Part shown: positions 14,315 to 31,686 of the stretch, in pieces
How the letters are laid out: each line of letters opens with the position of its first letter
Numbering within the stretch: position 1 is the stretch's first letter
Virus record (IMG/VR): IMGVR_UViG_3300031687_000059
Location: 1 to 33,722 of that record
Reading direction: 5' to 3' (one strand)
Length of the DNA: 33,722 nucleotides
Origin: a virus
The notes under the pieces: model-generated
What the model was told of the DNA's origin: nothing
What the model saw: the letters and a program-made list of their open reading frames with translations, nothing else
The model's database searches: none
Translations under genes and position numbers: made by a program

Positions 14315-14399
14315 TAACTGGTGCCTGTGTGCTACATAGAGTGCTGTGTATTGGTGGTAAAAACAACTTTAGTCATGTGTGCCGTTCAACAAAAAGACG
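14315..14399. other. Short intergenic stretch after gp17
   Basis: 85 bases rich in TGTG and TGGT runs with no open frame, no T-tract terminator and no clear hairpin. I see nothing interpretable in it. Confidence 0.4.
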
Positions 14400-14407
14400 T
14401 ATAAATA
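14400..14407 (+). promoter_or_regulatory. Late promoter for gene at 14415
   Basis: Perfect TATAAATA, ending 7 bases before the ATG at 14415. Confidence 0.7.
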
Positions 14408-14414
14408 ACACTAT

Positions 14415-16391
14415 ATGAACCCAAAAAACTCAGAAGATTTATTCAATAAAATTAGATCGCAGTTCACTAACATTAGACTAGGCGACGAAAGCGGTGCCGC
14501 AACAGCAGATCCAAGCAGTGCTGTATTTTTTGAATTTGAGTTTAGAGAAGACGCAGACACATTTGGGTCAGTTAGTGTATCAATAGCAGAAGACGGTACC
14601 ATGAAAGTATTTTATAACCGTAATTTAGTGGACAAAATTGACGAAGACAGCAAAGACGAATGGTATGCATTCCTTAAAGAGCTTAAAGACTTTGCAGTAG
14701 AGCACCAATTAAGCTTCGATGTACGTGATATTACTAAAAGTAACCTAACAAAACAGGATTACAAGAATATCGCAGACACTAATCAAACGGTAAATAACGA
14801 TGAGATGTCAGAAGAACTAAAAATAATTACAAAATTAGCAGGTGTCGATAAGGCGCCAGTTGCAGAAGGACTTTCGGGTACTTCTAAAAGCTCATTTGAG
14901 AACCTAGAAAAAACAAGATTAATAATTAGACACAAAGGCAAAGTTGACGAAACTGTGCCAGGTGCAAGATCAAGACAGATACAATCATTATACATTGAAA
15001 ACGAAGATGGTGAAAGATTCAAATATCCAATGACACACCTAGCAGGTGCAAGAGCTATGCAGAGACACGTGTCAAATGGCGGAAGACCACATGATGAATT
15101 TGGACAACACATTGTTGCAACTTCAGAAGACATAGCAAAATTAAATTCATTCTCAAGATACGTTACTAACAAAGATCAATTGAACGATAACGCTGGTGAT
15201 ATTATTGAGCAAACTAAAATGAAATTAGAAAACCTAAGAGGCTACATGAGAAACATAGCTAAACAATCTCATTACGAATCAGCAAGTAAAGATTTTAAAA
15301 CTAGCGACGAACAAGTATTAGACGATGAAACTGTAAACAAAATGAGAGAGAAATTCACAATGAAAAACTTAGATAGCAGAGTTGAAGATGCACTACCACT
15401 TATCAACAGAATCATGAGCGAACTAGAAGCACCTAAAGAAGAAGCACAAGTTAACGAATTAGATCCAGGTGATGAGCCAATTGATGCACCAGTACAACCA
15501 GATGTAGACCACGGTGCAGTTGTACAAGGTTATTTGACAGATCCAGAGAAAAAATTAATTTTAAGAAAAGATGATACAGCTGATAAAATGTTATCTGTAA
15601 CAAAATTCAAAGACAAAAATACTATGCTAGGTTCAATACTTTCTGATATAGCATCAAGATTAATTTCAACACCAAAAGGTGAAGAAGACAGAGTGGCAAA
15701 CTTTGCTTCTAGAGTAGCAGACGGAATAGAGCAAGAAGGTTCTGCTATGTTTAAGCCAGGTCCAGACTATAACAGCAATAAAAAAATTGCAGTACAGTTA
15801 GCAAAAAGATATTTAGATGACTACAAAAAAATGAAAGCTGATCCGTCATACGCAGACGAAGTGAGAAAAGACCCGCAAGACATAAACAAATTTAAAAACA
15901 TTAAAGGCCAAGATTACGATAACAAAGGCAAAGCAAAAGAAGAAACAGCATTTGAATCATGGGCTGATGACGTTACAAACGAATACGTGAAGCCAACAGA
16001 TTTAACTAACAAAGGTATGTTCAAAACTCAAGACAAAGACAAAGAAGAAAAAATGAACGTAACGAAAGCAGATCAAAAAGCAAACACACTAGCATACCAA
16101 AAAATGAAATCAGGTGATACTAGATATGCAGACAAGACTAACGAAGAATTTACTTTTGAAGATCTTAAACCTTTTATCGAACAGCATTTAAAAGATGGCG
16201 GAGATAAAGCTACTGCAATCGAAACAGCAATTGAAAAGTTTAACACAGAAGACAATGCTCCAGACATGGTCGTTAGAGATCCAGAAGATGAAGCAGAAGA
16301 TAAAGAACAAGAAATAGCAAAAGACCAAGTTGATGCTGAAAAGATCAACACAGAATTAGATAGAATTAAGCAACTAGCTAATATCCAATAA
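14415..16391 (+). CDS. Conserved marine T4-like phage protein, 658 residues
   Basis: Function unknown. A compact N-terminal domain (residues 1-110: FNKIRSQFTNIRLGD, SSAVFFEFEFREDADTFGSV, DEWYAFLKELKDFAVEHQL, FDVRDITKSNL) is followed by a linker. A longer charged region then begins at an internal Met131 (MSEELKIITKLAGVDKAPV) and contains TRLIIRHKGKVDE and QIQSLYIENEDGERFKYPMT. The C-terminal half is helical, acidic and Lys-rich (WADDVTNEYV, FEDLKPFIEQHLKDGG). Domain 1 has relatives in other marine T4-like phages. A late-promoter motif at 14789-14796 just before Met131 suggests a shorter second product. It lies between gp17 and gp32. Confidence 0.7.
   Translation: MNPKNSEDLFNKIRSQFTNIRLGDESGAATADPSSAVFFEFEFREDADTFGSVSVSIAEDGTMKVFYNRNLVDKIDEDSKDEWYAFLKELKDFAVEHQLSFDVRDITKSNLTKQDYKNIADTNQTVNNDEMSEELKIITKLAGVDKAPVAEGLSGTSKSSFENLEKTRLIIRHKGKVDETVPGARSRQIQSLYIENEDGERFKYPMTHLAGARAMQRHVSNGGRPHDEFGQHIVATSEDIAKLNSFSRYVTNKDQLNDNAGDIIEQTKMKLENLRGYMRNIAKQSHYESASKDFKTSDEQVLDDETVNKMREKFTMKNLDSRVEDALPLINRIMSELEAPKEEAQVNELDPGDEPIDAPVQPDVDHGAVVQGYLTDPEKKLILRKDDTADKMLSVTKFKDKNTMLGSILSDIASRLISTPKGEEDRVANFASRVADGIEQEGSAMFKPGPDYNSNKKIAVQLAKRYLDDYKKMKADPSYADEVRKDPQDINKFKNIKGQDYDNKGKAKEETAFESWADDVTNEYVKPTDLTNKGMFKTQDKDKEEKMNVTKADQKANTLAYQKMKSGDTRYADKTNEEFTFEDLKPFIEQHLKDGGDKATAIETAIEKFNTEDNAPDMVVRDPEDEAEDKEQEIAKDQVDAEKINTELDRIKQLANIQ
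14789..14796 (+). promoter_or_regulatory. Possible internal late promoter
   Basis: GGTAAATA inside the 14415 gene, ending 8 bases before in-frame ATG 14805 (Met131). The spacing matches the real late genes. It would give a 528-residue product lacking the N-terminal domain. Confidence 0.4.
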
Positions 16392-16429
16392 TAAAACTTC
16401 CATATTACCAATAATAGTAGTAGACAACT

Positions 16430-16437
16430 GATAAATA
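16430..16437 (+). promoter_or_regulatory. Late promoter for gp32
   Basis: GATAAATA, about 92 bases before the gp32 ATG, so transcription would begin at the foot of the hairpin at 16442-16472. Confidence 0.55.
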
Positions 16438-16441
16438 TCAG

Positions 16442-16472
16442 TGTATATTATGTACTATATGTCTAATATACA
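16442..16472 (+). promoter_or_regulatory. Hairpin in the gp32 leader
   Basis: TGTATATTA (16442-16450) pairs perfectly with TAATATACA (16464-16472), with a 13-base loop. The loop segment TATGT (16458-16462) could also pair with ACATA (16502-16506) as a pseudoknot. T4 gene 32 has a leader pseudoknot that nucleates gp32 binding to its own mRNA, and this may be the analogue. Confidence 0.45.
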
Positions 16473-16475
16473 TTT

Positions 16476-16495
16476 AGGCAAACTAAGGCAAACTA
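16476..16495 (+). repeat. Tandem 10-base repeat in the gp32 leader
   Basis: AGGCAAACTA occurs twice in direct tandem, followed by related A-rich text up to the Shine-Dalgarno site AAGGAGG (16514-16520). The stretch is almost free of self-pairing, as expected for a single-strand-binding operator. Confidence 0.6.
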
Positions 16496-16529
16496 AAACA
16501 AACATAGGCACAATAAGGAGGCTTACATT

Positions 16530-17537
16530 ATGGCATCATTAGCTGAAATAAGAGCGAAGTTAAAATCTCAAGAAGTTAATCGCTCAACTTCACAAACAGG
16601 CGGAGACAACGCCATCTACCCACACTGGAATATAGCAGAAGGCTCAGAAGCAGTTGTTAGGTTCTTACCAGATAAGGACACAAACAATACTTTCTTCTGG
16701 ACTGAAAGAAACATGATCAAATTACCTTTTGCAGGTATTAAAGGTCAAACTGATTCTAGACCAGTGCAAGTACAAGTACCTTGTATGGAGATGTACGGCA
16801 AGACTTGTCCAGTACTAACGGAAGTTAGACCATGGTTCAAAGATAAGAGCATGGAAGACATGGGCAGAAAATATTGGAAAAAGAAAAGTTATATTTTCCA
16901 AGGTTTTGTTACAACAAATCCACTAGCAGAGGACTCAACACCTGAGAATCCAGTCAGAAGATTTATAATTGGACCTCAGATCTTTAACATCATTAGAAGT
17001 GCATTGATGGATCCAGAGATGGAAGAAATGCCTACTGATTTGGTTAAAGGTGTTGATTTTAGAATTAACAAAACTACCAAAGGTGGTTATGCTGATTACT
17101 CAACATCAAAATGGTCAAGAAGAGAACGTGCATTAGATGAGGCAGAGAGAGCCGCAATCGAAACACATGGGTTACACAACCTAAGTGACTATAGACCAAA
17201 AGAGCCAACTGAAGCAGAAGTTAAAATAATTGCAGAATTATTTGCGAAATCTGTCGAAGGTGAAGCTTACGATCTTGAGCAGTATGGACAATACTTTAGA
17301 CCAGCGGGAATGGCTTACCAACCTAAACCCCAAGTATCAGTTCCAACAGCAAGTCCAGTAGCGGCGGCACCAGTAACTGAAGCGGCACCAGTAAGTGCAC
17401 CAGTAACTGCAACTGCACCTGTTACAGAATCTGTACCAGCACAACCAACAGCGGCGGCTACGGCGGCTCCTGCAGGTGATAGTGCCAAAAGAGCAGAGGA
17501 CATCTTGAAACTAATAAGATCAAGACAAGCAAAATAA
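16530..17537 (+). CDS. 32: Single-stranded DNA-binding protein gp32
   Basis: Coats ssDNA during replication, recombination and repair, and in T4 represses its own translation. 335 residues, against 301 in T4. The basic N-terminus (SLAEIRAKLKSQ) serves for cooperative binding. The core shows NIAEGSEAVVRFLPDKD, FFWTERNMIKLPFAGIKG and GRKYWKKKSYIFQGFV. Only two Cys (C85, C93) remain in the region that in T4 gp32 binds zinc with three Cys and one His, so the zinc site is reduced or changed. Residues about 265-320 are an Ala/Pro/Val-rich linker, and the tail ends KRAEDILKLIRSRQAK. The ATG has a strong AAGGAGG ribosome site. Confidence 0.9.
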   Translation: MASLAEIRAKLKSQEVNRSTSQTGGDNAIYPHWNIAEGSEAVVRFLPDKDTNNTFFWTERNMIKLPFAGIKGQTDSRPVQVQVPCMEMYGKTCPVLTEVRPWFKDKSMEDMGRKYWKKKSYIFQGFVTTNPLAEDSTPENPVRRFIIGPQIFNIIRSALMDPEMEEMPTDLVKGVDFRINKTTKGGYADYSTSKWSRRERALDEAERAAIETHGLHNLSDYRPKEPTEAEVKIIAELFAKSVEGEAYDLEQYGQYFRPAGMAYQPKPQVSVPTASPVAAAPVTEAAPVSAPVTATAPVTESVPAQPTAAATAAPAGDSAKRAEDILKLIRSRQAK

Positions 17538-17550
17538 TCTGACATTTTAC

Positions 17551-17580
17551 CAAGGCCCTGATGTTGACGTTAGGGCCTTG
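17551..17580. terminator. Hairpin after gp32, candidate terminator
   Basis: CAAGGCCCT (17551-17559) pairs perfectly with AGGGCCTTG (17572-17580). Adding A-T and G-T pairs extends this to a 12-bp stem with a 6-base loop. No T-tract follows (ATATGCTATTAT), so it may stall, protect or process the gp32 mRNA rather than terminate by the classical route. The loop holds the -35 of the uvsX promoter. Confidence 0.6.
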
Positions 17581-17592
17581 ATATGCTATTAT
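17564..17592 (+). promoter_or_regulatory. Sigma-70-like (early) promoter for the uvsX operon
   Basis: TTGACG at 17564-17569, a 17-base spacer, then TATTAT at 17587-17592 (both 5 of 6 against consensus). The predicted start is near 17599. A ribosome site AAAGGA (17602-17607) precedes the ATG at 17615. Confidence 0.65.
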
Positions 17593-17614
17593 AGGATATA
17601 CAAAGGATAAAATT

Positions 17615-18736
17615 ATGACGAAAGTATTTGACGCAACAAAGTTTAGAAAGAGTATTACAAAATCAATCCAAGGTTTAGGCATAGGGTTTAGTGATCCTAC
17701 TGATTGGATCAGCACAGGAAATTATGCATTAAATTATTTAATGACAGGCGATTTCAACAAAGGAATTCCGCTAGGCAAAGTTACGGTATTTGCAGGAGAA
17801 TCCGGAGCAGGTAAATCATACATAGCCGCAGGAAACATTATTAAGAATGCACAGGAGCAAGGTATATTTGTTATACTTGTTGACACAGAGAACGCATTGG
17901 ATGAGAAATGGTTGCAGGCATTGAAAGTAGACACATCGGAAGAGAAACTTCTAAAATTAAGTATATCAATGATCGATGATGTAGCTAAAACTATTTCAGA
18001 GTTTATGAAAGGTTACAAAGAAGCACACGCAGATGATAAAGAAGGTGCACCTAAAGTACTATTTGTTATAGACAGTTTAGGCATGATGCTTACACCAACT
18101 GACGTTAATCAGTTTGAAGCGGGTGATATGAAAGGTGACCTAGGTAGAAAACCTAAGGCATTAACTGCACTTGTGAGAAACTGTGTTAACATGTTCGGTT
18201 CATGGAACGTAGGCCTTGTAGCAACAAATCACACTTACGCATCACAGGATATGTTTGACCCAGATGATAAGATATCAGGTGGACAGGGATTTATCTATGC
18301 AAGTTCAATAGTTATTGCAATGAAAAAACTTAAATTAAAAGAAGATCTTGATGGTAACAAAGTTACAGACGTAAGAGGTATTAGAGCGGCTTGTAAAGTT
18401 ATGAAAACAAGATATGCTAAACCGTTTGAAGGTGTACAGGTTAAGATTCCATATGAAACAGGAATGAACCCGTACAGTGGACTAGTGGACCTATTTGAAA
18501 AGAAAGGTATACTTGTACAGACTGGAAACAGGCTAAAATACATTGACAAAGCAGGTAAAGAACATATCGACTTTAGAAAACAATGGATCGGTGATAAATT
18601 AGATATGCTAATGGCAGACTTTAAAGAATCCACAGATTTTGCTGATAAAGAAGATACAGACGCTCCTATTGAAGTAGAAGTAAAGCCAAAAGCAAAAACT
18701 AAAAAAGTAGAACCAATTAAGGAAGAAAAGGAATAG
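17615..18736 (+). CDS. uvsX: RecA-like recombinase UvsX
   Basis: ATP-dependent strand exchange protein that forms filaments on ssDNA coated with gp32 and drives recombination-dependent replication. 373 residues, near T4 UvsX (391). Walker A is GESGAGKS at residues 61-68. Walker B is LFVIDS at about 149-154. GSWNVGLVATNH and the L2-loop-like region DPDDKISGGQGF follow, then KVMKTRYAKPFEGVQVKIPYE. The C-terminus is acidic then Lys/Glu-rich, ending EPIKEEKE. It has its own sigma-70-like promoter and leads an operon of uvsX, the 78-residue gene, the UvsY-like gene and probably the HAD and glycosyltransferase genes. Confidence 0.92.
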   Translation: MTKVFDATKFRKSITKSIQGLGIGFSDPTDWISTGNYALNYLMTGDFNKGIPLGKVTVFAGESGAGKSYIAAGNIIKNAQEQGIFVILVDTENALDEKWLQALKVDTSEEKLLKLSISMIDDVAKTISEFMKGYKEAHADDKEGAPKVLFVIDSLGMMLTPTDVNQFEAGDMKGDLGRKPKALTALVRNCVNMFGSWNVGLVATNHTYASQDMFDPDDKISGGQGFIYASSIVIAMKKLKLKEDLDGNKVTDVRGIRAACKVMKTRYAKPFEGVQVKIPYETGMNPYSGLVDLFEKKGILVQTGNRLKYIDKAGKEHIDFRKQWIGDKLDMLMADFKESTDFADKEDTDAPIEVEVKPKAKTKKVEPIKEEKE

Positions 18737-18739
18737 TAT

Positions 18740-18976
18740 ATGATAGATTTTGATCACGCTGATATTGAAAGATTGTGGAATTCTATCATCCATTACGTAC
18801 CCGAGAGACAAAGATTAGACATGGCAATAGATTTCATTAAAAGTTTGGAAGACATTGGAGTAGATCATGACGTACTCAAAGGATCTGCAGAGCTTGATCC
18901 AAAACTTGAGGAAGCTGTCAACACTGTGTTCGAGGAAGAAGAATCTGATGACGTGGGTTACGGCGAGGATGAATGA
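18740..18976 (+). CDS. Small acidic hypothetical protein, 78 residues
   Basis: Not recognised. MIDFDHADIERLWNSIIHYV then PERQRLDMAIDFIKSLEDIG indicates a helical pair, and the tail is strongly acidic (FEEEESDDVGYGEDE). It starts 3 bases after uvsX, uses an AAGGA in the uvsX tail as ribosome site, and overlaps the UvsY-like start by 4 bases (ATGA). Its fixed place between uvsX and uvsY suggests a role in recombination, which is inference. Confidence 0.65.
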   Translation: MIDFDHADIERLWNSIIHYVPERQRLDMAIDFIKSLEDIGVDHDVLKGSAELDPKLEEAVNTVFEEEESDDVGYGEDE

Positions 18977-19434
18977 TAAACTGGTATAATGAAGTTAGCA
19001 GAAATTTATCTAAGATACCTGACTGTGTAGCATACTTTGATGCTGAACTACTAGAAGCAAGAAAGCAGTGTAAGATATACGGTAACTTGGAAAGAGCTAG
19101 TGCATCGTTACCTGGCATAGTTGAAGAAAGATTTAGTCAACTACAACAACTTGAAGCAATACTAGAATACCTAAACATAGAATTAAGAAGATTACGATCT
19201 AAAACTTTTAGGAAATTCCTAGAAAACTATAATAAATTATTAAGCAGTAGAGACGCAGAGAAGTATGTTGACGGTGAAGCTGACGTTGTTGACATGAGTA
19301 AAATAATTAACGACTTTGCATTAATACGTAATCAATGGTTAGGCATCACCAAAGGGTTAGATCAAAAACAATGGCAGATAACAAACATTGTTAAATTGAG
19401 AGTAGCAGGAATGGAAGATGCCGATATCTCATAA
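18973..19434 (+). CDS. uvsY: UvsY-like recombination mediator
   Basis: In T4, UvsY loads UvsX on gp32-coated ssDNA. 153 residues, against 137 in T4. Weak but positional similarity is visible: a helical YFDAELLEARKQCKIYG, a basic helix LNIELRRLRSKTFRKFL, an acidic EADVVDMSKIINDFA segment aligning to the VLKVDTSLQYW part of T4 UvsY, and a final helix KQWQITNIVKLRVAGMEDA aligning to its C-terminus. Location two genes after uvsX supports the call. It overlaps the upstream gene by 4 bases and the downstream gene by 17. Confidence 0.65.
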   Translation: MINWYNEVSRNLSKIPDCVAYFDAELLEARKQCKIYGNLERASASLPGIVEERFSQLQQLEAILEYLNIELRRLRSKTFRKFLENYNKLLSSRDAEKYVDGEADVVDMSKIINDFALIRNQWLGITKGLDQKQWQITNIVKLRVAGMEDADIS

Positions 19435-20041
19435 TAGAATAATACTTACAGACGTAGACGGAGTACTGTTAGAATGGGAACACCATTTTACCAAGTGGAT
19501 GCAACTACGATCATACTTTGACAAAAATGGAAATAGATTTTATCCATACAAGTCAGTGGACACATCGGAAGACGACTACGAAATGGCCAATAGATTTGGT
19601 GTTAGTAAAGATACCATTAGACAAGAAATCAGAGAATTTAATAGAAGTGCATGGATGGGAACACAACGCCCTATGTTAGAATCACAGACTTGGGTAAAGT
19701 TACTACATGCAGAGGGGTGGACCTTTGTACCAATCACATCACAAACATCAGATGTGCCAGCACAAGAGTTACGTAAAAAAAGATTAGGAGAACTATTTGG
19801 AGAACAAGTGTTTACCAATTACCACATACTAGGCACAGGAGCAGACAAAGACGGAGCATTAGCAGACTTCCATGACACCGGGCTGTATTGGGTCGAGGAC
19901 AAGCCTAAGAACGCACTAGCAGGGCTCTCTTACGGTTTAAAGCCTATATTAATTGACCATCCATACAATAGAGATTTTAATCACCCAGATGTTATCCGTG
20001 TAAATAATTGGGAACAAATACATGAGATTTTGGTAAAATGA
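19418..20041 (+). CDS. HAD-superfamily hydrolase-like protein
   Basis: 207 residues. HAD motif I is LTDVDGVLLEW, with D12 and D14 as nucleophile and acid. Motif II is PITSQT (T107 or S108). A Lys-containing RKKRLGELFG region follows, then motif IV at YWVEDKPKNA with E160/D161. It is probably a phosphatase on a nucleotide, sugar phosphate or DNA end; the substrate is not predictable here. The cap-like part (residues 20-95) is helical. The ATG lies 17 bases inside the UvsY-like gene and its stop overlaps the next ATG by 4, so it is translated with both neighbours. It is the link between the recombination block and the glycan island. Confidence 0.7.
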   Translation: MPISHNRIILTDVDGVLLEWEHHFTKWMQLRSYFDKNGNRFYPYKSVDTSEDDYEMANRFGVSKDTIRQEIREFNRSAWMGTQRPMLESQTWVKLLHAEGWTFVPITSQTSDVPAQELRKKRLGELFGEQVFTNYHILGTGADKDGALADFHDTGLYWVEDKPKNALAGLSYGLKPILIDHPYNRDFNHPDVIRVNNWEQIHEILVK

Positions 20042-20715
20042 AAGTATACGTAGGTTGGGATTCGCGAGAAGATATATCATATCAGGTATGTGAGCACTCT
20101 ATCAAACGTAGAGATTCATCAGCTGAAGTTATACCATTAAAACAAAATCAGATGCGAGAGCAAGGTATGTATACTAGAGAAATAGACAAATTAGCCACAA
20201 CAGAATTTACGTTTTCTAGATTCTTTGTTCCTTATCTTAATGACTACAAAGGTTGGGCTGTATTTTGTGATTGTGATTTCCTTTGGAAAATTCCAGCAAA
20301 AGAACTTGAACAATACTGCGATGATTCTAAAGCAGTTGTTTGTGTGCAACACGATTACACACCCGAAGAAGGATCTATCAAAATGGATGGACAGGTACAA
20401 ACAGCATATCCAAGAAAAAATTGGAGCAGTATGGTACTGTGGAATTGCGGACATCCTAAGAATAAAATATTAACTCCCGAACTACTAAACAAAGAAACAC
20501 CAAAATTCCTACATAGATTTAGTTGGCTAGATGACGAAGACATTGGGTCTCTACCTCACGAATACAATTGGCTAGTAGGTTGGTACAAAGAACCCAAAGA
20601 CGGTAAGCCTAAGATACTGCACTACACAGAAGGTGGTCCGTGGTTCGATGGTTATAGAGATTGCGAGTATTCCGATGATTGGAAGAAAGAAGTAATCAAT
20701 CTTTTCAGTGCGTAA
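20038..20715 (+). CDS. Glycosyltransferase, GT-A fold, GT8-like
   Basis: 225 residues. The GT-A nucleotide-sugar site is visible: MKVYVGWDSRED at the N-terminus, a DxD metal motif D78-C79-D80 in FCDCDFLW, PRKNWSSMVLWNC in the acceptor region, and ILHYTEGGPWFDGY near the C-terminus, as in GT8-type enzymes. It probably transfers a hexose to a surface glycan or lipid-linked acceptor in the cytoplasm. It overlaps the HAD gene by 4 bases. First glycosyltransferase of the accessory island. Confidence 0.75.
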   Translation: MKVYVGWDSREDISYQVCEHSIKRRDSSAEVIPLKQNQMREQGMYTREIDKLATTEFTFSRFFVPYLNDYKGWAVFCDCDFLWKIPAKELEQYCDDSKAVVCVQHDYTPEEGSIKMDGQVQTAYPRKNWSSMVLWNCGHPKNKILTPELLNKETPKFLHRFSWLDDEDIGSLPHEYNWLVGWYKEPKDGKPKILHYTEGGPWFDGYRDCEYSDDWKKEVINLFSA

Positions 20716-20733
20716 CCCACTATATTAATTCAA

Positions 20734-20741
20734 GATAAGTA
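20734..20741 (+). promoter_or_regulatory. Possible degenerate late promoter
   Basis: GATAAGTA ending 5 bases before the ATG at 20747. It differs from the late consensus at one base (TAAGTA for TAAATA). Only the spacing supports it. Confidence 0.3.
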
Positions 20742-20746
20742 CAGTT

Positions 20747-21004
20747 ATGAAACACATGAACAGAATGCTTCAGTGGATCGATGAACTAGGATTAATCGTA
20801 GTCCAATCTGAAATCAAACCATTCGGGCCCGGCACACGGAGATACATGGTTGGCAGACATGTTGAAGAACCTAAGCACAATGCATGGCAACTGCCAAGTG
20901 GTAAATGGGCGTCGACTCATGGTGTACAAGAATGGCTCACACCAGAACCACTAGATGGCCCAGCTTTAGAAAAATGGTTAACTGACTATGCAAATAAAAA
21001 CTAA
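20747..21004 (+). CDS. Small hypothetical protein, 85 residues
   Basis: Not recognised. Begins MKHMNRMLQWIDELGLIVVQ and continues with FGPGTRRYMVGRHVEEPKHN and KWASTHGVQEWLTPEP. Trp-rich, soluble, no signal peptide. The end overlaps the FkbM methyltransferase by 17 bases, so it is the first gene of a translationally linked set with FkbM, radical SAM and oxygenase genes. It could be a small partner protein. Confidence 0.55.
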   Translation: MKHMNRMLQWIDELGLIVVQSEIKPFGPGTRRYMVGRHVEEPKHNAWQLPSGKWASTHGVQEWLTPEPLDGPALEKWLTDYANKN

Positions 21005-21575
21005 TTTCTTAGGTACACTTGCTGAAATACCTAAAAAGATTGAGGGATGGAATCACACATTTCAATTAGCACTACCTTATATAAAAGAAAACGGAATTGG
21101 CATAGACGTTGGTTGCAGAGAAGGTGGATTTGCTAGGGAAATGGAAAAGTACTTTACACACATACATTGTTTTGATTTTCGAAATAAAAAAAATATGTTT
21201 GAAAAAAATGTAGTCGACATGAATAAATTTACGTATCATGTTTGCGGAATAGGAGATAAGAAAGGCACAACATTCACAACAAGCAATAAAGTAGGCAGAA
21301 TTAAAGATCACGGCGATGTTGCTGTACCTATAAAAACAATAGACTCATTTAACTTTAAAAATGTTTGTTTTATAAAATACGACATCGAGGGATACGAATT
21401 CAAAGCACTAAAAGGTTCAGAACAAACTATTAAAAAGTGCGAGCCAGTTGTTGTAATAGAACAAAACAGAGGAAATACTCATGCACAGAAACTTTTAGAA
21501 AGTTGGGGGTACACGTGCAAAGGTATAGACAGTGTGTTTAATCAAGATTATATAATGGTGAAAGAAAATGTATAG
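20988..21575 (+). CDS. FkbM-family methyltransferase
   Basis: 195 residues. SAM-binding motif I is GIDVGCREGG (residues 38-47), followed by HCFDFRNK (motif II region) and the FkbM motif KYDIEGYEFKALKGSE with D132 and E134. FkbM enzymes usually O-methylate sugars or other hydroxyl groups. It overlaps the upstream small gene by 17 bases and the radical SAM gene by 8. A second, unlike FkbM enzyme is at 24891. Confidence 0.78.
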   Translation: MQIKTNFLGTLAEIPKKIEGWNHTFQLALPYIKENGIGIDVGCREGGFAREMEKYFTHIHCFDFRNKKNMFEKNVVDMNKFTYHVCGIGDKKGTTFTTSNKVGRIKDHGDVAVPIKTIDSFNFKNVCFIKYDIEGYEFKALKGSEQTIKKCEPVVVIEQNRGNTHAQKLLESWGYTCKGIDSVFNQDYIMVKENV

Positions 21576-22569
21576 AGAGATACCATTGCCCTCGGCAATA
21601 GCATTTGAACCTATCAACTTATGCAACGCAAAATGTTATTGTTGTCCATATACCACATTAAGTGAAGACAAAACATATCACGGCCAACTAATGACCAAAG
21701 AACAATTAGGTATGCTGGTACACGACTACGGTTCACTTATAAAAAAATACAAAGTAAAAGATTATGCGTGTGCTATTAGCCCATGGAGATACAGTGATCC
21801 ACTAGTGCAACCTAATCTAGAGTACATCATGGAACTGTGTAATCACTATAAAATTAATGTTGGTATTACTACTAACGGTGTGTCATTCACTAAAAAACAG
21901 TGTGAAATTTTAAACAAATACAAACACCTAATAGGCAATGTTCATATGAGTGTTATTGGACATACCGCAGAAGAACTATGGGAATTTATGAAGATTAAAA
22001 AAGACAAGACACTGAAAAGTCTAAACTTTGTAAAAGAAAACTATCCAAAACTTTCAGAAAGGATTAGAATCGGTGTTAAACACAAAAATCAATCGGCCAC
22101 TGCTAGTGCCTCAACGATCACCGAATATCAAAATGCAACACTAGGTAAAGTGAAGTCAAAAAGTAATTGGATTGAAAATAGAATGGGTGACGGAGATGGC
22201 GACTGGACCAAACCCTACAATGCTGTAATTGATGAGAACAACTACATGCAAGGATGTGCTATGGGCTCCGGACGTATACTAAGGAAGATGGAAGTGTTAG
22301 TGAGCGGACAAGCAGTTTTGTGTTGTGACGATGCAGAAGGAAAGACAGACTATGGAAACATTTTTGAAATCGGAATTGAGGGAGCATGGAAAAACATGCA
22401 AAAAGAACACGAAATAATATACGATAAAAAATATTCCAAAGAAAAAAAGAACTTGATCTGTAACACATGTTCTAGGGCCAAGTTCAACGATAAATGGACA
22501 AGTGATATGGAATCAAAACTACAGGCAGAACAACGAGATACTGTTAATAAGATAGGAAGTATGCAATGA
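21568..22569 (+). CDS. Radical SAM enzyme with SPASM domain
   Basis: 333 residues. The radical SAM cluster motif is CNAKCYCC (C19, C23, C26: Cx3Cx2C) after FEPINL, which is the typical context. A Lys-rich middle follows. The C-terminal SPASM-like cluster region has C230, C252/C253 (VLCCDDAEG), then GNIFEIGIEGAW and C298/C301 (ICNTCSRA). It generates a 5'-deoxyadenosyl radical; members act on peptides, sugars or cyclitols and the substrate cannot be read here. It overlaps FkbM by 8 bases and the next gene by 4. Confidence 0.8.
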   Translation: MYREIPLPSAIAFEPINLCNAKCYCCPYTTLSEDKTYHGQLMTKEQLGMLVHDYGSLIKKYKVKDYACAISPWRYSDPLVQPNLEYIMELCNHYKINVGITTNGVSFTKKQCEILNKYKHLIGNVHMSVIGHTAEELWEFMKIKKDKTLKSLNFVKENYPKLSERIRIGVKHKNQSATASASTITEYQNATLGKVKSKSNWIENRMGDGDGDWTKPYNAVIDENNYMQGCAMGSGRILRKMEVLVSGQAVLCCDDAEGKTDYGNIFEIGIEGAWKNMQKEHEIIYDKKYSKEKKNLICNTCSRAKFNDKWTSDMESKLQAEQRDTVNKIGSMQ

Positions 22570-23168
22570 TTGGTAAACATTTTGTAAGTAAATGTACCAC
22601 CAGCACGGCAATCAACAATCCCTGGCCGCACCAAATTATAGAAGACACATTGCCACAAGAAGAATTCGTTAAACTTAAAGAACAATGTCTCAACATAGAG
22701 GTGCCCAAAGACAAACTTGTTCATATATTTCCAAAAGATTTTGCTGATCATAACATTAAGTTCTATGATCAAATACATGATATAGGTAAAACAATTTTAG
22801 ATAATGCAAAACAGTTGTGTGACCAATATCCTAATTATAGATGGTTCGAAGATCTAGCCGTCAATGCTCACATTTCTGTGACTCCTCCGTTACCTTATAA
22901 GTTCTACATACACCAAGAAGGGCTTGAAAAAATATGGAGCAGTGTAACCTACATAACTCCAGAAGTGAATGTAGGAACTAAAATGTACACAGAACAGGAT
23001 GAAAAAGCATTTGTTAAAGAAGCGGAGTGGAAACCTAATAGTACTTTTATATTTTGCGGACAGCAAGGTAAAACTTGGCACAGTTACGAAAGTAACCAAA
23101 CACAACAACGAATAACTTTAAACTTGTTTCTTGTAAAGAGCAGTTTAAAAAATTTACATTCCAACTAA
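22566..23168 (+). CDS. 2OG-Fe(II) oxygenase-like protein
   Basis: 200 residues. A jelly-roll iron site is suggested by H116-Q-E118 in FYIHQEG, H172 in KTWHSYES and R182 in QQRITLNLF, ten residues after H172, the spacing of 2-oxoglutarate binding in this superfamily. N-terminal NNPWPHQIIEDTLPQEEF is a common opening of such proteins. The usual HxD is HxE here. Likely a hydroxylase. It overlaps the radical SAM gene by 4 bases and converges with the minus-strand glycosyltransferase with a 15-base overlap. Confidence 0.55.
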   Translation: MIGKHFVSKCTTSTAINNPWPHQIIEDTLPQEEFVKLKEQCLNIEVPKDKLVHIFPKDFADHNIKFYDQIHDIGKTILDNAKQLCDQYPNYRWFEDLAVNAHISVTPPLPYKFYIHQEGLEKIWSSVTYITPEVNVGTKMYTEQDEKAFVKEAEWKPNSTFIFCGQQGKTWHSYESNQTQQRITLNLFLVKSSLKNLHSN

Positions 23169-23870
23169 AATTATTTTTTCCTTTAATGCTTGTACGTCTG
23201 CTTGTAGATGTCTGTCTCTTACTTTTTCCCAAACAAAATTATCTCTTACATTAATATTAAGATTATGACGTATTTGTTTGCCTGCATTATCGTTAATGAT
23301 TTTCTTTGCTTTGAATGTTACTGTTGGCAAAAAAAGGCACCTGTTTAATTTACGTGCAACCTTTTGTGTGTATGTGTCCACGTGCCAGTGCCAAAAGAAA
23401 GGAGGTGCTAGATATCCTAACGTAGTGATCCAGTTTTTATGTACTGCAAAATGTGCCGCTGGTAATGGTTTGTCTGGCCAACGAATTGCGTCTTCACCGT
23501 GATTCTTATTGCCTTTGGCTCGTCCGTCACTAGGTACTACCATCAAAATTCTATCCTCATATCTGAGAAATTCGTCAGCAATCATTTGATCCCAATTCTG
23601 TGTTTGTACTTGTACATCATCTCCCATAAGCATAACAATATCATTACTTGCTTTGTTGGCCATTAAATTCCAACTATAACAAGTGGATTGATTTGGACCA
23701 ACTGTATAATGTTTTTCGTCTAATAGATCTTTGTATTGTTCTAACTTTTCGTCGTCATCATTAAGATAAAATAGAAACTCTGTATTGCCATTTTGTGTTT
23801 CGGTTGCAGTATCAACTAATCTCTTTGCCAGTTCGGGTCTGCCTCTCGACGGACAACAAAAAGAAATCAT
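23154..23870 (-). CDS. Glycosyltransferase, GT-A fold, GT2-like
   Basis: 238 residues. N-terminal MISFCCPSRGRPELAKRLVD is the first strand and helix of GT2-type enzymes. FLFYLNDDDEKLEQY and the metal motif in DIVMLMGDDVQV (GDDVQ for DxD) follow, then PPFFWHWHVDTYTQKVAR and a C-terminal helical tail. The ATG overlaps the stop of the epimerase gene by 4 bases, so both are read leftwards from the late promoter at 24878-24885. Probably acts in the same glycan pathway. Confidence 0.72.
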   Translation of the reverse strand: MISFCCPSRGRPELAKRLVDTATETQNGNTEFLFYLNDDDEKLEQYKDLLDEKHYTVGPNQSTCYSWNLMANKASNDIVMLMGDDVQVQTQNWDQMIADEFLRYEDRILMVVPSDGRAKGNKNHGEDAIRWPDKPLPAAHFAVHKNWITTLGYLAPPFFWHWHVDTYTQKVARKLNRCLFLPTVTFKAKKIINDNAGKQIRHNLNINVRDNFVWEKVRDRHLQADVQALKEKIILVGM

Positions 23871-24871
23871 ATTAGTTTATTCTTCCAAGTCTCTGGAGTC
23901 TTGTCGTTTATGATCTCTAACGGTAAGTGATATTGAAATTTCTTTGTACCTCTGGATCTAATGTATTCAGCAGTCTTTCTAACAGACGTTCTCATGTCCG
24001 TTGCTGTGCTGTAACCTAATAAGTCTCTTGCTTTGTCCGATGAACACACTGCTAGTTTAACTTCTTTAGGTCTGTCCTTGTGGTGTATAGGATCTAAATT
24101 AATTCCAGTTTCGTTGGCACATGCTTCTGCTAACTCATTGATTGTTATAGGTTCTTCGTCTGGTCCTATGTTGATAATTTCGCCAACAACGTTATCTTGG
24201 AATGCAAGTGCATTCAAACAATACAAGCAATCATCAATATAACTAAAACATCGTTGTTGCATACCATCTCCGTATATGATAGGTTGTTTGCCTTGTAGCA
24301 TTCTGTTTAACATGATAGACATTACATTTCTAAACGGGTCATCGTACTTCTGTCTCGGTCCGACTATGTTGTGCGGTACAGCAATAACATACTCTACTCC
24401 ATGTGTTTCGCATAAATTTCTTAACACATCTTCACCTGCCTTCTTTGCGATACCATATGGATCCTGTGGACGACATTCGTAATCTTCTTTGTATGGCATC
24501 TCATCATGATGGCCATATCTTGCCATGCTTGAACAATACACAATACGTTTCACCTTGTTTCTTATTGCGGCAGTGATTGTTGTAACTGATGCTTCAAAAA
24601 TATTTCTTGTAACAAGTACAGGAGAAAATACAGAAAGACCTTCGTAGGCAGTAGCGGCAGTGTGATACACTATATCACATCCTTCCATTGCTTTGGTCAT
24701 GTTCTCTAGATCGCAACAGTCCACTTGATGGAACTCCACATCTTGTGGTACATTATCTGTATAACCACCGATCATGTTATCATTACCGGCAACAGTATGT
24801 CCTTGTGATATCATCAAATCTGCTAGGTGTGACCCTAAAAATCCTGCGACGCCTGTTATAAAAATTTTCAT
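23867..24871 (-). CDS. NAD(P)-dependent nucleotide-sugar epimerase/dehydratase (extended SDR)
   Basis: 334 residues. The Rossmann motif GxxGxxG is GVAGFLG (7-13). DIVYHTAA and RIVYCSSMARYG (catalytic Ser about 115) follow, then Y139-x3-K143 in PYGIAKK, VPHNIVGPRQKYDDP, and RCFSYIDDCLYCL. This is the layout of UDP-glucose 4-epimerase and related NDP-sugar enzymes. It supplies or converts an activated sugar for the neighbouring transferases. Its late promoter ends 6 bases before the ATG, with no Shine-Dalgarno site. Confidence 0.85.
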   Translation of the reverse strand: MKIFITGVAGFLGSHLADLMISQGHTVAGNDNMIGGYTDNVPQDVEFHQVDCCDLENMTKAMEGCDIVYHTAATAYEGLSVFSPVLVTRNIFEASVTTITAAIRNKVKRIVYCSSMARYGHHDEMPYKEDYECRPQDPYGIAKKAGEDVLRNLCETHGVEYVIAVPHNIVGPRQKYDDPFRNVMSIMLNRMLQGKQPIIYGDGMQQRCFSYIDDCLYCLNALAFQDNVVGEIINIGPDEEPITINELAEACANETGINLDPIHHKDRPKEVKLAVCSSDKARDLLGYSTATDMRTSVRKTAEYIRSRGTKKFQYHLPLEIINDKTPETWKNKLI

Positions 24872-24877
24872 TTTAAG

Positions 24878-24885
24878 TATTTAAT
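24878..24885 (-). promoter_or_regulatory. Late promoter for epimerase-glycosyltransferase unit
   Basis: Minus-strand ATTAAATA, ending 6 bases before the ATG at 24871. It shows that part of the glycan island belongs to the late regulon. Confidence 0.6.
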
Positions 24886-24890
24886 TTAAG

Positions 24891-25517
24891 TTATGCACGG
24901 TAAAAAACTTTGTCTGGCCAATGATCCATTAGCACCTTAAACCCCATTGAGCTTATGTGTTTTTCAATTTCAGCATTACTACTTCCATATTTTTTAGTAT
25001 TATTGTTTAATTCTATCATTAGGTACTGCACACTTTCTAATGTTTTTGTTGCACCTTTAAGCACTTCCATTTCGTATCCTTCGACATCTATCTTGATCAG
25101 GTCCACATTTTCATATGCTAGACTATCCAGTGTAACCATCCGGATGTCTCCCTCTTTCTCCACCCTCTTTGCCTGAGTGAAGTCATCTTCCGTAAGAGAT
25201 ATGTGTTTTATTTCAGATCCCACAGCTTCTTGTCGAGGATCACAGTTGATTGTGCAGTTACGTTGTAGACATGCGAAGTGCACCTTGTCAGGTTCAAAAG
25301 CAATTACATTCTTAGCAAATGGCTCAATAGCCTTAGACCATGTACCACACCATGCACCTACGTCTATAACTGTCTTGAATTTCTTGTTCTGTGTTTGACA
25401 ATAAGCCAGGAATTTCAGCAGACATTTGTTCTGTGTGAATGGTTGCCCCGTCTTCCATTGCTCAATATGTATGTCATTTGATGGAACCCACAAGTTGTTT
25501 ACTTTTTCTATTTTCAC
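24891..25517 (-). CDS. FkbM-family methyltransferase (GTG start)
   Basis: 208 residues. The start codon is GTG at 25517, overlapping the stop of the upstream gene as GTGA, with AAAGGA about 6 bases before it. SAM motif I is VIDVGAWCGTWS (50-61), then VIAFEPDKVHFACLQRN (motif II) and the FkbM signature IKIDVEGYEMEVLKGA. Likely sugar O-methylation. It differs clearly from the FkbM at 20988, so the two were probably acquired separately. Third gene of the minus-strand unit starting at 26966. Confidence 0.8.
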   Translation of the reverse strand: MKIEKVNNLWVPSNDIHIEQWKTGQPFTQNKCLLKFLAYCQTQNKKFKTVIDVGAWCGTWSKAIEPFAKNVIAFEPDKVHFACLQRNCTINCDPRQEAVGSEIKHISLTEDDFTQAKRVEKEGDIRMVTLDSLAYENVDLIKIDVEGYEMEVLKGATKTLESVQYLMIELNNNTKKYGSSNAEIEKHISSMGFKVLMDHWPDKVFYRA

Positions 25518-26326
25518 AATATTCCTTTATCCAATAATATTTCTACTGCTTTTCCGCTAGTAATTTCTTCTGGTGTGAACTGCTGATAGGCAAGACTGTA
25601 TAGCCATTCTTCGCAACCAACAAAGAAAGGATTTTCGATGTCTGCAAGTTCTTGTCCTGCAACTTCTTTAGCAAAACTCTTGTTATCTGCTATGACCGGA
25701 ATGCCCATACACTGTGCTTCCACGGCCGCTATCGAACAACTTGTTACCAAACACCAAGCATCTTTTAAATCCTCTGACAGTGGAACTGTTGCTTCGCTTG
25801 GTCCTGATGTTCCCCTGCCCCTAGGTTTTTGTCTAATTTTTATTGGTCTGTCTGTGTATCTTTTGATTTGTTCTACAGTTTCTTTTGTCCAATTAGGTCT
25901 GTCTAAATAGTTGTGAATACCAGCTGAGCTAGGACATACTAATATGTAACTGCCTTTAAAGTTAGGTGCTTTAATTTGTATATTAAACTTTTCAAACCTA
26001 TCAGCCTTACAACCCCTTATATAACTTGCATGAATTTTATTTCTACATATACGCCAATAGTGATTGTCTGCTTTTAAATTATTGTTGTCGAATCTACCAA
26101 AGTATGGAGTATCAGTAAACCAAAATTGATGTTTACGTGCTTCTAATTTTTTAACCATAGCTCTATTGTTACCAACAAATCCCCAGAACATACTGTTTGC
26201 TATAGGTTCTATTTCAGTTTGGTTATCTAGCAATTTTGTTTCTTCAGGCCAAGACTTTTGCACACCATCGAAGACTTCGTATGCTTTGCTATTTTTATTA
26301 TTAAATGGTGCGTAAATTGTTAACAT
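25514..26326 (-). CDS. Capsule-polysaccharide-type transferase paralogue A
   Basis: 270 residues. One of four related proteins in the window (with 28145, 28950, 32574). Shared elements are a FTDTPYFGR segment, an ILVCPSSAGIHNYL strand, a TDRPIKIRQKPRG strand, AWCLVTSCSIAAVEAQCMGI (about residues 195-214), a PEEI..G element, and a W..SLAY helix. The S..A(V/L)EA..(R/M)GIP signature resembles KpsC/KpsS-type capsule glycosyltransferases. The RPHP motif kept in two paralogues is RQKPR here. The ATG lies within the SGNH gene (26-base overlap). Enzyme activity is inferred. Confidence 0.55.
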   Translation of the reverse strand: MLTIYAPFNNKNSKAYEVFDGVQKSWPEETKLLDNQTEIEPIANSMFWGFVGNNRAMVKKLEARKHQFWFTDTPYFGRFDNNNLKADNHYWRICRNKIHASYIRGCKADRFEKFNIQIKAPNFKGSYILVCPSSAGIHNYLDRPNWTKETVEQIKRYTDRPIKIRQKPRGRGTSGPSEATVPLSEDLKDAWCLVTSCSIAAVEAQCMGIPVIADNKSFAKEVAGQELADIENPFFVGCEEWLYSLAYQQFTPEEITSGKAVEILLDKGIL

Positions 26327-26966
26327 CTATAAATTCTTTTAATTGTTTTGCCCACTGTTCGTGGCCTTCGGCTGACGGATGTGGATCGTTAGGACTTACT
26401 ATTAAATTTTTATCAGAGGCAAATTCAAGTTGACTCACTTTTGGATTAAAGAATCTATCCATGTTGATTGCATTTCTAATTACAGTAAAGTCTTCGGTGC
26501 CGTTACCAAAATCGTTAGGCAGAGAGTTATACATCACATAAGGTATTCGCTTACGTTCAAAATAATTTTGCAAATCAAAAACATTATTAAGGAACTTCAT
26601 AGTAAGATTGTTTTCTATATCCCAGCCTTTTTGTTTTCGTATGAAACTTACATTGTCCAATGTCTTCCAAGTCCGCCAAGTAAGATCAGTACCTGGTATA
26701 CGGCCTTTCTTCCACCCGTCGTCTGTTATGTAATCGTTCCTTATTGCACTAGACCACCCTATCACAGCAAAAATATCTTCGTTATTATTTTGCTCACACC
26801 AAACCTTAGTTGAAAAACTTATTCTAGTATTACCACGACCACCCATTGCAAGGTTAAACAATTCTAGATTATAACCTTCCGCTAAGATTTTTGTGGTAAA
26901 TGTGTCTACCCCGTCTTTGTTTCTCGGTGTTAAGAAACTACACCCATTTGATAATAATTTGCTCAT
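26301..26966 (-). CDS. SGNH/GDSL-type hydrolase
   Basis: 221 residues from ATG 26966 (MSKLLSNGCSFL). The longer in-frame start at 27014 lies upstream of the minus-strand promoter. Block I is NGCSF with Ser10 (GCS for GDS), block II NLAMGGRGNTR, block III IGWSS, and block V NDPHPSAEGHEQWA with the Asp-x-x-His pair. SGNH hydrolases remove or transfer acyl (often acetyl) groups on sugars, which suits the glycan setting. It leads the minus-strand unit, with the paralogue A and FkbM genes following by overlap. Confidence 0.68.
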   Translation of the reverse strand: MSKLLSNGCSFLTPRNKDGVDTFTTKILAEGYNLELFNLAMGGRGNTRISFSTKVWCEQNNNEDIFAVIGWSSAIRNDYITDDGWKKGRIPGTDLTWRTWKTLDNVSFIRKQKGWDIENNLTMKFLNNVFDLQNYFERKRIPYVMYNSLPNDFGNGTEDFTVIRNAINMDRFFNPKVSQLEFASDKNLIVSPNDPHPSAEGHEQWAKQLKEFIDVNNLRTI

Positions 26967-26987
26967 GCTGTTGTTTAGTAGTATAAT
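26959..26987 (+). promoter_or_regulatory. Sigma-70-like promoter, rightward, for GT61 gene
   Basis: TTGCTC (26959-26964), a 17-base spacer, TATAAT (26982-26987). A second possible pair is TTGTTT (26971-26976) with TATACT (26993-26998), spacer 16. The ATG at 27017 lies 12 to 23 bases downstream of the expected starts. Confidence 0.45.
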
Positions 26988-27014
26988 TATAGTATACTTA
27001 CTGACAAAATGCAA
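26986..27014 (-). promoter_or_regulatory. Sigma-70-like promoter, leftward, for SGNH unit
   Basis: Minus strand TTGCAT (27014-27009), a 17-base spacer, TATAAT (26991-26986). Its -10 overlaps that of the rightward promoter by 2 bases, so the two should compete. Confidence 0.4.
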
Positions 27015-27016
27015 AC

Positions 27017-28099
27017 ATGAAAAACATAGATTCGATCAAATACTTTTTAGACAAATGGGAAATGGTAGATAATGGTTATGATTATACAGTGCCATACCAT
27101 GAAGATATTGATCCAAACTTTACAAGTTTACCAACGTTCGTCGCAGAATTTCATAATGTTAAGGTAAACACTTGCCCGGTACTTGTTACTATGGCTAACA
27201 AACTTATAACCAATTATGTTTGGGGACTCACACATGCCAGCAAACACAAACCTCAAAAATCACACAAACTTTGGACTGACTGGAGTGATGATGTGGATGT
27301 TGCATTACCACCTACTACTGAATTCTTTGACAAGAAATATCATTACGTATGGTTACCAATCGATGAAGCAAGTGCAGAAAACCCATGGCATATTTGGATT
27401 GACGTTATATCTAAATTTAGACTTATGGAAAAAAGATGGTCCACAGACTTTACAAGATACTGTTATGTGTTAGCAAACGAAAGCAAGTATCTAAAAAAAT
27501 GCATCAAAGAATTATTTCCTGAAGTTAAAGTTCTAGTGATGCCAAAAGGGGAAACATGGCAGTTTAAACATTTGCTAGTGCCTAGTCTAAGTAATTCTAG
27601 AGACGGTGTTATTACTCCTCACCTAGCCCCATGGCTAAGACATTTTAAAGGAAGACCTGGACTTAAAGGCATAAGAGCACACAGAAAAATTGTTGTGTTA
27701 CGTCCAGGTGCTAGAACAAGAAAACTAACAAACTCTGATGAACTACTGTTAGCACTTAAAGGTTATGAAGCAGTTGTGCTTGAAAATATGAGTATCAAAG
27801 AACAAATGAAAACATTTGCAGAAGCAACACACATTGTTGCGGCTCATGGTGCAGGTCTAATAAATTTATTATGGTGTCAGCGTGGAACAAAGGTAATCGA
27901 AATACAAGACCCTAAAATGATTCATAAAAAAGTTTATCCAGTATTGTCACACCATTTAGAATTAAAGCATGAACTATACCTAGCAGACACAGTGCCAGTA
28001 CCAATGGATGGTAAGAAAAAGCCTGCAGGCATAAAGAGAAAAAGCGATTTAATTAATTTTAAAGTGAATGTTGCAGAATTAGTTAGACATTTAGATTAA
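27017..28099 (+). CDS. Glycosyltransferase family 61-like
   Basis: 360 residues. The C-terminal half has the GT61 (DUF563) pattern: KIVVLRPGARTRKLTN, then a helix and IVAAHGAGLINLLWC with H277-G-A-G280, and GTKVIEIQDP. The N-terminal half includes NPWHIWIDVISKF and CYVLANESKYLK. GT61 enzymes add xylose, GlcNAc or related sugars; the acceptor is not predictable. It stands alone on the plus strand under the divergent sigma-70-like promoter, with the next late promoter downstream. Confidence 0.72.
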   Translation: MKNIDSIKYFLDKWEMVDNGYDYTVPYHEDIDPNFTSLPTFVAEFHNVKVNTCPVLVTMANKLITNYVWGLTHASKHKPQKSHKLWTDWSDDVDVALPPTTEFFDKKYHYVWLPIDEASAENPWHIWIDVISKFRLMEKRWSTDFTRYCYVLANESKYLKKCIKELFPEVKVLVMPKGETWQFKHLLVPSLSNSRDGVITPHLAPWLRHFKGRPGLKGIRAHRKIVVLRPGARTRKLTNSDELLLALKGYEAVVLENMSIKEQMKTFAEATHIVAAHGAGLINLLWCQRGTKVIEIQDPKMIHKKVYPVLSHHLELKHELYLADTVPVPMDGKKKPAGIKRKSDLINFKVNVAELVRHLD

Positions 28100-28130
28100 A
28101 TTGGTAATTTATATCTGGTAACAAGACAAC

Positions 28131-28138
28131 CTTAAATA
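28131..28138 (+). promoter_or_regulatory. Late promoter for gene at 28145
   Basis: CTTAAATA, ending 6 bases before the ATG at 28145. No Shine-Dalgarno site. Confidence 0.6.
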
Positions 28139-28144
28139 CGAGTA

Positions 28145-31678: not shown

Positions 31679-31686
31679 ATTAAATA
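31679..31686 (+). promoter_or_regulatory. Late promoter for gene at 31695
   Basis: ATTAAATA just past the asnB stop, ending 8 bases before the ATG at 31695. Confidence 0.5.

Follow-up and report, generated by a model that had tools for sequence, protein, structure and literature searches.

What molecule do a methyltransferase, a radical S-adenosylmethionine (SAM) enzyme and an oxygenase modify when a phage encodes them side by side, and what is the role of the small orphan protein encoded just ahead of them? These questions are raised by positions 20747 to 23168 of IMG/VR virus record IMGVR_UViG_3300031687_000059, which was analyzed from position 1 to 33,722 (hereafter the window; 33,722 nucleotides). 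A previous interpretation made from the letters of the DNA (the sequence-only reading) had described four overlapping genes that would supply methylation, radical chemistry and hydroxylation to one target, perhaps a sugar of the adjoining glycan island or, more speculatively, a peptide for which the small protein would be the precursor. On balance, we favor the view that a T4-superfamily phage carries these genes as an exchangeable tailoring cassette in a surface-type glycan island, with the small protein as an accessory partner, and we hold this view with a confidence slightly on the favorable side of even.

Four genes under purifying selection

All four genes lie on the plus strand. An open reading frame (ORF) at 20747-21004 encodes the orphan protein of 85 amino acids (aa), and is followed by genes for an FkbM-family methyltransferase (20988-21575, 195 aa; above the cut-offs of PF05050 and TIGR01444), a radical SAM enzyme with a predicted one-cluster, Twitch-like SPASM region (21568-22569, 333 aa; above the cut-off of PF04055 and just below that of PF13186), and a 2-oxoglutarate (2OG)-Fe(II) oxygenase-like protein (22566-23168, 200 aa; recognized by HxE...H...R and by alignment to a PF13640-positive relative). 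These coordinates, as well as overlaps of 17, 8 and 4 bases between successive genes, agree with the sequence-only reading, and so do the identities of the FkbM gene, by curated cut-offs, and of the 2OG-like gene, by its PF13640-positive relative. Overlap was rejected as the mark of a functional unit and is no cassette signature, because 13 of 31 same-strand neighbors among 35 chosen window genes overlap (10/28 outside the cassette).

Median pairwise ratios of nonsynonymous to synonymous substitution (dN/dS) were, in gene order, 0.116, 0.088, 0.077 and 0.120, with single pairs reaching 0.74; the FkbM alignment used for this purpose included the second FkbM of the window as a row, and the FkbM profile was built without that row. 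These values point to purifying selection on all four genes, indicating that the 85-aa ORF is a real gene.

A modular set within a glycan-type island

The window is a fragment of a T4-superfamily myovirus, with PHROGs matches to tail sheath, tail tube, terminase large subunit, head-tail adaptor, a gp32-like single-stranded DNA-binding protein, UvsX and UvsY. Its UvsX shows 54 to 67% identity among the 12 matches listed, headed by jumbo phages such as Atu_ph07 and Phosso, and no DNA-level match to positions 16000-27500 was found in the phage collection. Judging from isolate relatives, the phage is probably marine. The cassette opens an island that further encodes a glycosyltransferase (PHROGs), an epimerase (PF01370), a second FkbM protein, a GT61 protein (PF04577) and an Asn_synthase/GATase protein (AsnB-like amidotransferase). 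At 23154-23168, the oxygenase gene (plus strand) and a glycosyltransferase gene (minus strand) converge with an overlap of 15 bases.

Relatives were collected from IMG/VR, yielding 52 loci for the radical SAM enzyme (with a wider alignment, the best 80 of 87), the best 80 of 175 for the oxygenase, and 29, 75, 7 and 75 loci in successive searches with the small protein, including 4 new contigs beyond the first 75 loci. Loci are numbered with the prefix L. Partners were counted within 3.5 kb, over 283 loci (a set that does not include L293-L296), for unique sequences flanked by 3.5 kb or more on either side; the bit-score thresholds were 60, 150, 110 and 150.

A fixed unit, as the sequence-only reading had it, was not borne out by the neighborhoods of these relatives. 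More specifically, the small protein (n = 22) was accompanied by all three partners in only 8 cases, by oxygenase and radical SAM enzyme in 3, by the oxygenase only in 3, by the radical SAM enzyme only in 3, by FkbM and radical SAM enzymes in 2, by FkbM and oxygenase in 1, and by none of these families in 2 (L127 and L129). For the radical SAM enzyme (n = 31), the small protein was present in 21 cases, the oxygenase only in 2, and none of the other three genes in 8. For the oxygenase (n = 37), none of the other three genes was present in 16 cases, and uvsX, uvsY or g19 was nearby in all 16. Thus, the oxygenase appears to be a resident of the island, with the small-protein, FkbM and radical SAM genes coming and going ahead of it.

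The genes named as partners do occur apart in relatives, an outcome that the sequence-only reading had named as a refutation; the radical SAM gene in particular is lost, moved or replaced. No radical SAM gene adjoins the small gene in L070, L110, L114-L116 and L118-L121; FkbM is missing from part of the relatives (e.g., L004-L007); and in L067 and L072 the small-protein, FkbM and radical SAM genes lie elsewhere in the island, apart from the oxygenase. In the L118 record, a member of the radical SAM family lies 34 kb away from the small gene, and the L121 record (196.6 kb, maybe incomplete) holds small and oxygenase genes together with nine other PF04055 matches, none of them of the window's radical SAM family. 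Comparing L111 with L038 and L041, UvsX is 97 to 99%, the oxygenase 90 to 93% and the small protein 90 to 92% identical, and the radical SAM enzyme just 52%, indicative of a swap in place between near-identical phages. Pairwise identities of the small protein correlated with those of the radical SAM enzyme (0.76), the oxygenase (0.69) and UvsX (0.54), which shows shared descent and is not proof of coupling. As the oxygenase and the radical SAM enzyme each occur alone (16/37 and 8/31, respectively), the enzymes can apparently do without the small protein, and their substrate is therefore probably something else.

The radical SAM enzyme carries a predicted single auxiliary cluster

The third gene product belongs to the radical SAM superfamily, scoring 30.1 bits against PF04055 (cut-off, 29.5) and carrying the CxxxCxxC motif. 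Its cysteines C19, C23 and C26 (21622-21645, plus strand) are invariant in a 16-row alignment, and the motif is present in 64/64 unique sequences. The auxiliary-cluster region (22255-22470, plus strand) contains C230, C252, C253, C298 and C301, likewise invariant in the 16 rows; both cysteine motifs were found in 58 of the 64 sequences, the remaining six being cut by contig ends. The first half of the label radical SAM/SPASM given by the sequence-only reading is thus confirmed (PF04055, CxxxCxxC). As to the second half, PF13186 scored 21.1 bits, 0.4 bit short of its 21.5 cut-off, and the seven-cysteine motif of two-cluster SPASM domains (CX9-15GX4C-gap-CX2CX5CX3C-gap-C) was absent, the invariant auxiliary cysteines in the 16-row alignment numbering only five. 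C230, G247-x4-C252 and C298-x2-C301, all invariant, fit the Twitch pattern of BtrN (four cysteines, with a GX4C hairpin followed by CX2C), and a single auxiliary cluster is accordingly predicted for the window enzyme. None of the 11 named NCBIfam SPASM/Twitch families listed was above cut-off, the best being spiro-SPASM (39.6 versus 250 bits).

BtrN (4M7T) was the sole sequence relative of this enzyme in PDB (E = 2e-4; 0.0016 with the wider alignment). When the AlphaFold2 (AF2) model (predicted local distance difference test [pLDDT] 76, predicted template modeling score [pTM] 0.81; cluster loops poorly predicted) was compared with known structures, BtrN also headed the VIA fold ranking (Z 17.5, root mean square deviation 3.2, 232 residues aligned, 22% identity). 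In the sequence alignment, C252, C298 and C301 fall opposite Cys 187, 232 and 235 of BtrN, which we take to be its cluster ligands. A choice between sugar and peptide on the strength of the fold failed, the top rows being tied (SuiB within 1 Z of BtrN). The accessible part of the source that defines the seven-cysteine SPASM motif gives BtrN four cysteine ligands (PMC6231123).

A first profile search of genome contigs found no bacterial relatives, and a second gave L284 only. The latter (positions 1-288) was rejected as a bacterial relative, being a phage radical SAM fragment of 85% identity that opens a Chloroflexi metagenome-assembled genome contig, after which the frame changes; it is a probable assembly chimera. 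A gene that looks by eye like one for an A-type Fe-S carrier (CGCGESFG end) occurs at L040 10408-10743 and L045 9503-9838, within a few kb of the gene for the radical SAM enzyme, and may supply clusters.

FkbM and 2OG-like partners

The FkbM protein scored 49 bits against PF05050 (cut-off, 22.7) and 43.5 bits against TIGR01444 (cut-off, 37.7). At L012 5559-5999, an additional frame of 147 codons lies between the FkbM and radical SAM genes; it looks 2OG oxygenase-like by eye (HxD...H) and is without a Pfam match. L013 has the same gap.

Assignment of the fourth gene product relied on a relative. None of 13 members matched any 2OG Pfam family, and the window record gave no match to PF13640. A relative detected by tblastn in Synechococcus phage S-SCSM2R (L291:2953-3645; 24.6% identity, E = 4e-6) passes PF13640 (29.5 versus 27 bits), and its HxD...H...R residues align with H116, E118, H172 and R182 of the window protein, the putative metal triad and arginine (codons at 22911, 22917, 23079 and 23109, plus strand). 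Because this relative passes PF13640 and aligns at all four residues, we place the oxygenase in the 2OG superfamily. HxE, in place of HxD, was present in 73 of 75 unique sequences, one having HxD and one being cut before the motif; HIH and HVH were masked in this count, so that the second histidine was scored. A PHROG 274 match labeled "DNA endonuclease V" (E = 1.4e-5) was set aside as doubtful, given the alignment with the PF13640-positive relative. In S-SCSM2R, the order is KdsB, KdsA (lipopolysaccharide-sugar genes), one further gene and then the oxygenase relative.

The small protein looks folded and is evenly conserved

The AF2 model of the 85-aa protein is fairly confident (pLDDT 79, pTM 0.60) and has an alpha-beta-beta-beta-alpha order. 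In a 31-row alignment, conservation is even from end to end, with E22, P25, G27, G29, T30, R31, R32, Y33, G36, E40, P42 and others invariant; this supports the remark of the sequence-only reading that an obvious leader/core split is lacking. The best-conserved stretch is PxGPGTRR(Y/F), with Y33 replaced by F in four second-group rows (see below) obtained later. Codons for G27-P-G-T-R-R32 occupy 20825-20842 (plus strand), and GPGTRR lies in the least confident part of the model (residues 21-30, mean pLDDT 63).

Searches of Pfam, PHROGs, NCBIfam, the phage collection and PDB sequences gave no useful match, and Foldseek, at E ≤ 0.001, found no similar fold in PDB or among viral models. The VIA rows (dsRNA-binding-domain type, T7 Gp1.2, one primase chain; Z 5.0-5.8) were not trusted, as Z < 8 is common by chance; no chain of the RiPP recognition element (RRE) type, as known from ribosomally synthesized and posttranslationally modified peptides (RiPPs), was among the VIA rows listed, an absence that excludes nothing. 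The small-protein profile also matched part of a 235-aa frame in G013 (E = 7e-4; 0.054 with the widened profile), a match that was taken as chance.

These observations bear on whether the small protein itself is the substrate, namely, a ribosomal scaffold whose GPGTRR loop is modified by whichever radical SAM, 2OG and FkbM enzymes are present, in RiPP-like or protein modification. This proposal draws on the constant association of the small protein with three tailoring classes across two phage groups, on the overlap of its gene with FkbM (17 bases in the window, and also in L293-L295), and on the marine proteusin pathway of pythonamide, in which, according to the accessible part of the report, FkbM, hydroxylation and other maturases share one peptide (PMC9259500). 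It is countered by the folded model and the lack of a variable core, and by the persistence of invariant columns where no radical SAM gene adjoins. Specifically, 27 of 28 columns invariant in 25 radical SAM-linked small proteins are unchanged in four rows without an adjoining radical SAM gene (L070, L110, L116 and L118), a modest test given that L118 has the distant family member described above. Further counterevidence comes from L111, in which the small protein stays 90 to 92% identical next to a divergent radical SAM enzyme, and from enzymes found without a small homologue nearby: with the profile widened by the second group and E up to 10, no real copy was detected in the surroundings of 21 radical SAM loci without a small gene, the two matches (E = 5.6 and 7.8) being taken as chance. 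Moreover, no RRE is fused ahead of the radical SAM enzyme, the window protein having 18 residues before its first motif cysteine. We consider modification of the small protein quite unlikely, and the extended version, in which it is a scaffold whose invariant GPGTRR loop is rewritten by interchangeable enzymes and which recurs in glycan-type islands of distant phages, a long shot. As for the RiPP precursor proposed as an alternative by the sequence-only reading, a leader/core pattern and an RRE are lacking, the predicted alpha-beta fold is fairly confident, and the small protein is unchanged where no radical SAM gene adjoins; a precursor peptide is thus not supported, and the protein appears, from its model and alignment, folded and evenly conserved.

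The small protein meets the same enzyme classes in a second phage group

Seven contigs (L127, L129, L130 and L293-L296) form a second, distant group with a different neighborhood, in which the order radical SAM, 2OG-like, small gene was observed in 7/7. In three of them (L293-L295), an FkbM-like gene follows the small gene, overlapping it by 4, 4 and 20 bases, respectively, as the ORFs were called, and is itself followed by an AsnB gene; L130 stops inside AsnB. The L127 radical SAM enzyme passes both PF04055 and PF13186, and its neighbor reaches 22.4 bits against PF13640 (cut-off, 27); the second-group radical SAM enzyme matches BtrN at 7e-13. Profile comparison of the window and second-group radical SAM enzymes gave a match of 87 columns (probability, 73%) in the region of the radical SAM motif, and that of the window oxygenase with the second-group 2OG-like protein gave no significant match. 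This weak or absent similarity suggests that the small protein is accompanied in the second group by different tailoring enzymes, though of the same classes. The island of the second group also has homologues of window genes g19, g27, g30, g32 and g33.

The small protein is no random neighbor of tailoring enzymes. In 5/5 neighborhood types, its gene adjoins one for a radical SAM, 2OG or FkbM enzyme (window, L072, L117, L323 and L295; in L072, the automatic gene caller missed the small ORF, and adjacency was taken from a separate analysis). Non-tailoring genes adjoin a tailoring gene in 4/33, 4/11, 2/17, 2/11 and 3/10 cases in those types (2/22 and 2/12 with alternative representatives), and the product of the five fractions is ~3e-4, assuming that the types are independent. 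This finding bears on another explanation, in which the small gene serves a phage function of its own (e.g., as a host-takeover inhibitor) and is found near tailoring genes only because both use the same insertion hotspots. Small proteins of that sort are common in phages, the gene persists when either neighbor is missing, and the second VIA row was T7 Gp1.2 bound to E. coli dGTPase (Z 5.5). Z values below 8 are nonetheless frequent for chance arrangements, and a tailoring gene adjoins in all five types, one of them with other enzymes. We regard a hotspot passenger as unlikely.

A sugar is the better guess for the target

In our favored reading of an exchangeable glycan-tailoring cassette, the FkbM enzyme would O-methylate a nucleotide sugar or the growing glycan, the radical SAM/Twitch enzyme would abstract a hydrogen and oxidize, epimerize or deoxygenate such a substrate, and the 2OG oxygenase would hydroxylate it. 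Substrates would be made by the adjoining glycosyltransferases, epimerase and AsnB-like amidotransferase, and the outcome would be an altered sugar on the infected cell or the virion. The 85-aa protein may then be a folded accessory partner of the tailoring enzymes (carrier, adaptor or regulator) rather than a precursor peptide. Of the two targets offered by the sequence-only reading, the sugar of the island glycan is the better guess in view of the glycan-type island in both groups, KdsA and KdsB near the oxygenase relative, and the likeness to BtrN.

Several observations weigh against a sugar. In the VIA ranking, the peptide enzymes SuiB (16.8), ChlB (16.2), SkfB (15.2) and EpeE (14.9) come next after BtrN, and Foldseek E-values put DesII first and SuiB second. 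The accessible part of one account indicates that similarity networks predict function poorly in the subfamily of SkfB, which has a Twitch domain and acts on a peptide (PMC6231123). The nearest isolate relatives of the FkbM protein come from Caulobacter jumbo phages (36%) and, in the one record examined, are surrounded by tRNA genes and not by glycan genes, and no window gene points to one particular sugar. One of the eight lone radical SAM genes (L193) has a small-protein gene 34 kb away in the same record, and a protein substrate common to the three enzyme classes would likewise be expected to recur next to them, as the small protein does. Given SuiB within 1 Z of BtrN, and FkbM among tRNA genes in the isolate, the sugar is a lean and not proof.

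Alternatively, the enzymes may act on another phage target, such as the nucleobases of phage DNA. In some phages, 2OG oxygenases serve DNA modification. So do glycosyltransferases, as stated in the accessible part of the pelagimyophage study (PMC7029224), and the window encodes a deoxynucleoside monophosphate kinase at 2886-3521. That kinase is a usual T4-type gene, the oxygenase relative lies near 3-deoxy-D-manno-octulosonate (Kdo) genes, and no base-hydroxymethylase-type family appeared in the scans made, which did not set every window gene against every library. We judge a DNA target highly improbable.

Known systems and significance

Radical SAM cassettes in glycan regions of marine T4-like phages, and radical SAM-rich T4-like genomes, are known already, as the accessible parts of two studies attest (PMC7029224 and PMC5332604). 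Pelagimyophages carry radical SAM cassettes and glycosyltransferases in their host-recognition region (PMC7029224), and thus resemble the window phage in being T4-like and in having a hypervariable glycan-type region whose radical SAM cassettes differ between close relatives; in contrast, the accessible account describes no small orphan, FkbM or 2OG partner, and the UvsX studied here is nearest to Atu_ph07 and Phosso. The cultured Pelagibacter phage Mosig EXVC030M has a glycan-type region with two putative methyltransferases, two glycosyltransferases, a sulfotransferase and a homologue of window gene 25514-26326 (27.8%), but the search of the phage collection gave no match there to the window radical SAM enzyme or small protein. 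TARA_ERS488813_N000010 is likewise a marine T4-like virus, with 12 radical SAM genes, although in the accessible part of the published account these are not linked to FkbM, 2OG or a small protein (PMC5332604). A virus record of 91 kb (L285; G015, IMGVR_UViG_3300028192_000001, 13000-32000) has 13 radical SAM matches, ten of them in a run at ~14.8-27.7 kb.

Among individual enzymes, BtrN (a Twitch radical SAM dehydrogenase) is alike in its sequence match, its top fold row and three of four aligned auxiliary cysteines, but identity in the fold alignment is just 22%, SuiB lies within 1 Z, and the likeness seen is one of sequence and fold. The pythonamide pathway, with its FkbM N-methyltransferase EreM, is likewise a marine cluster in which an FkbM enzyme and hydroxylation share one target, as far as the accessible report goes (PMC9259500). 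Its precursor, however, has a 46-residue core, whereas here there is no leader/core and the island is glycan-type; the likeness to EreM is one of enzyme family. Neither the four-gene phage set nor the small protein family with its recurring partners was found in the literature searched, which was largely non-subscription.

Some marine T4-like viruses hold many radical SAM genes of obscure purpose, and the present analysis assigns one of them to an exchangeable slot whose partners are defined. A previously undescribed small protein family marks slots of this kind in two distant phage groups and offers a handle for genome mining, and the four genes are short enough to allow the question of a sugar versus a protein target to be tested.

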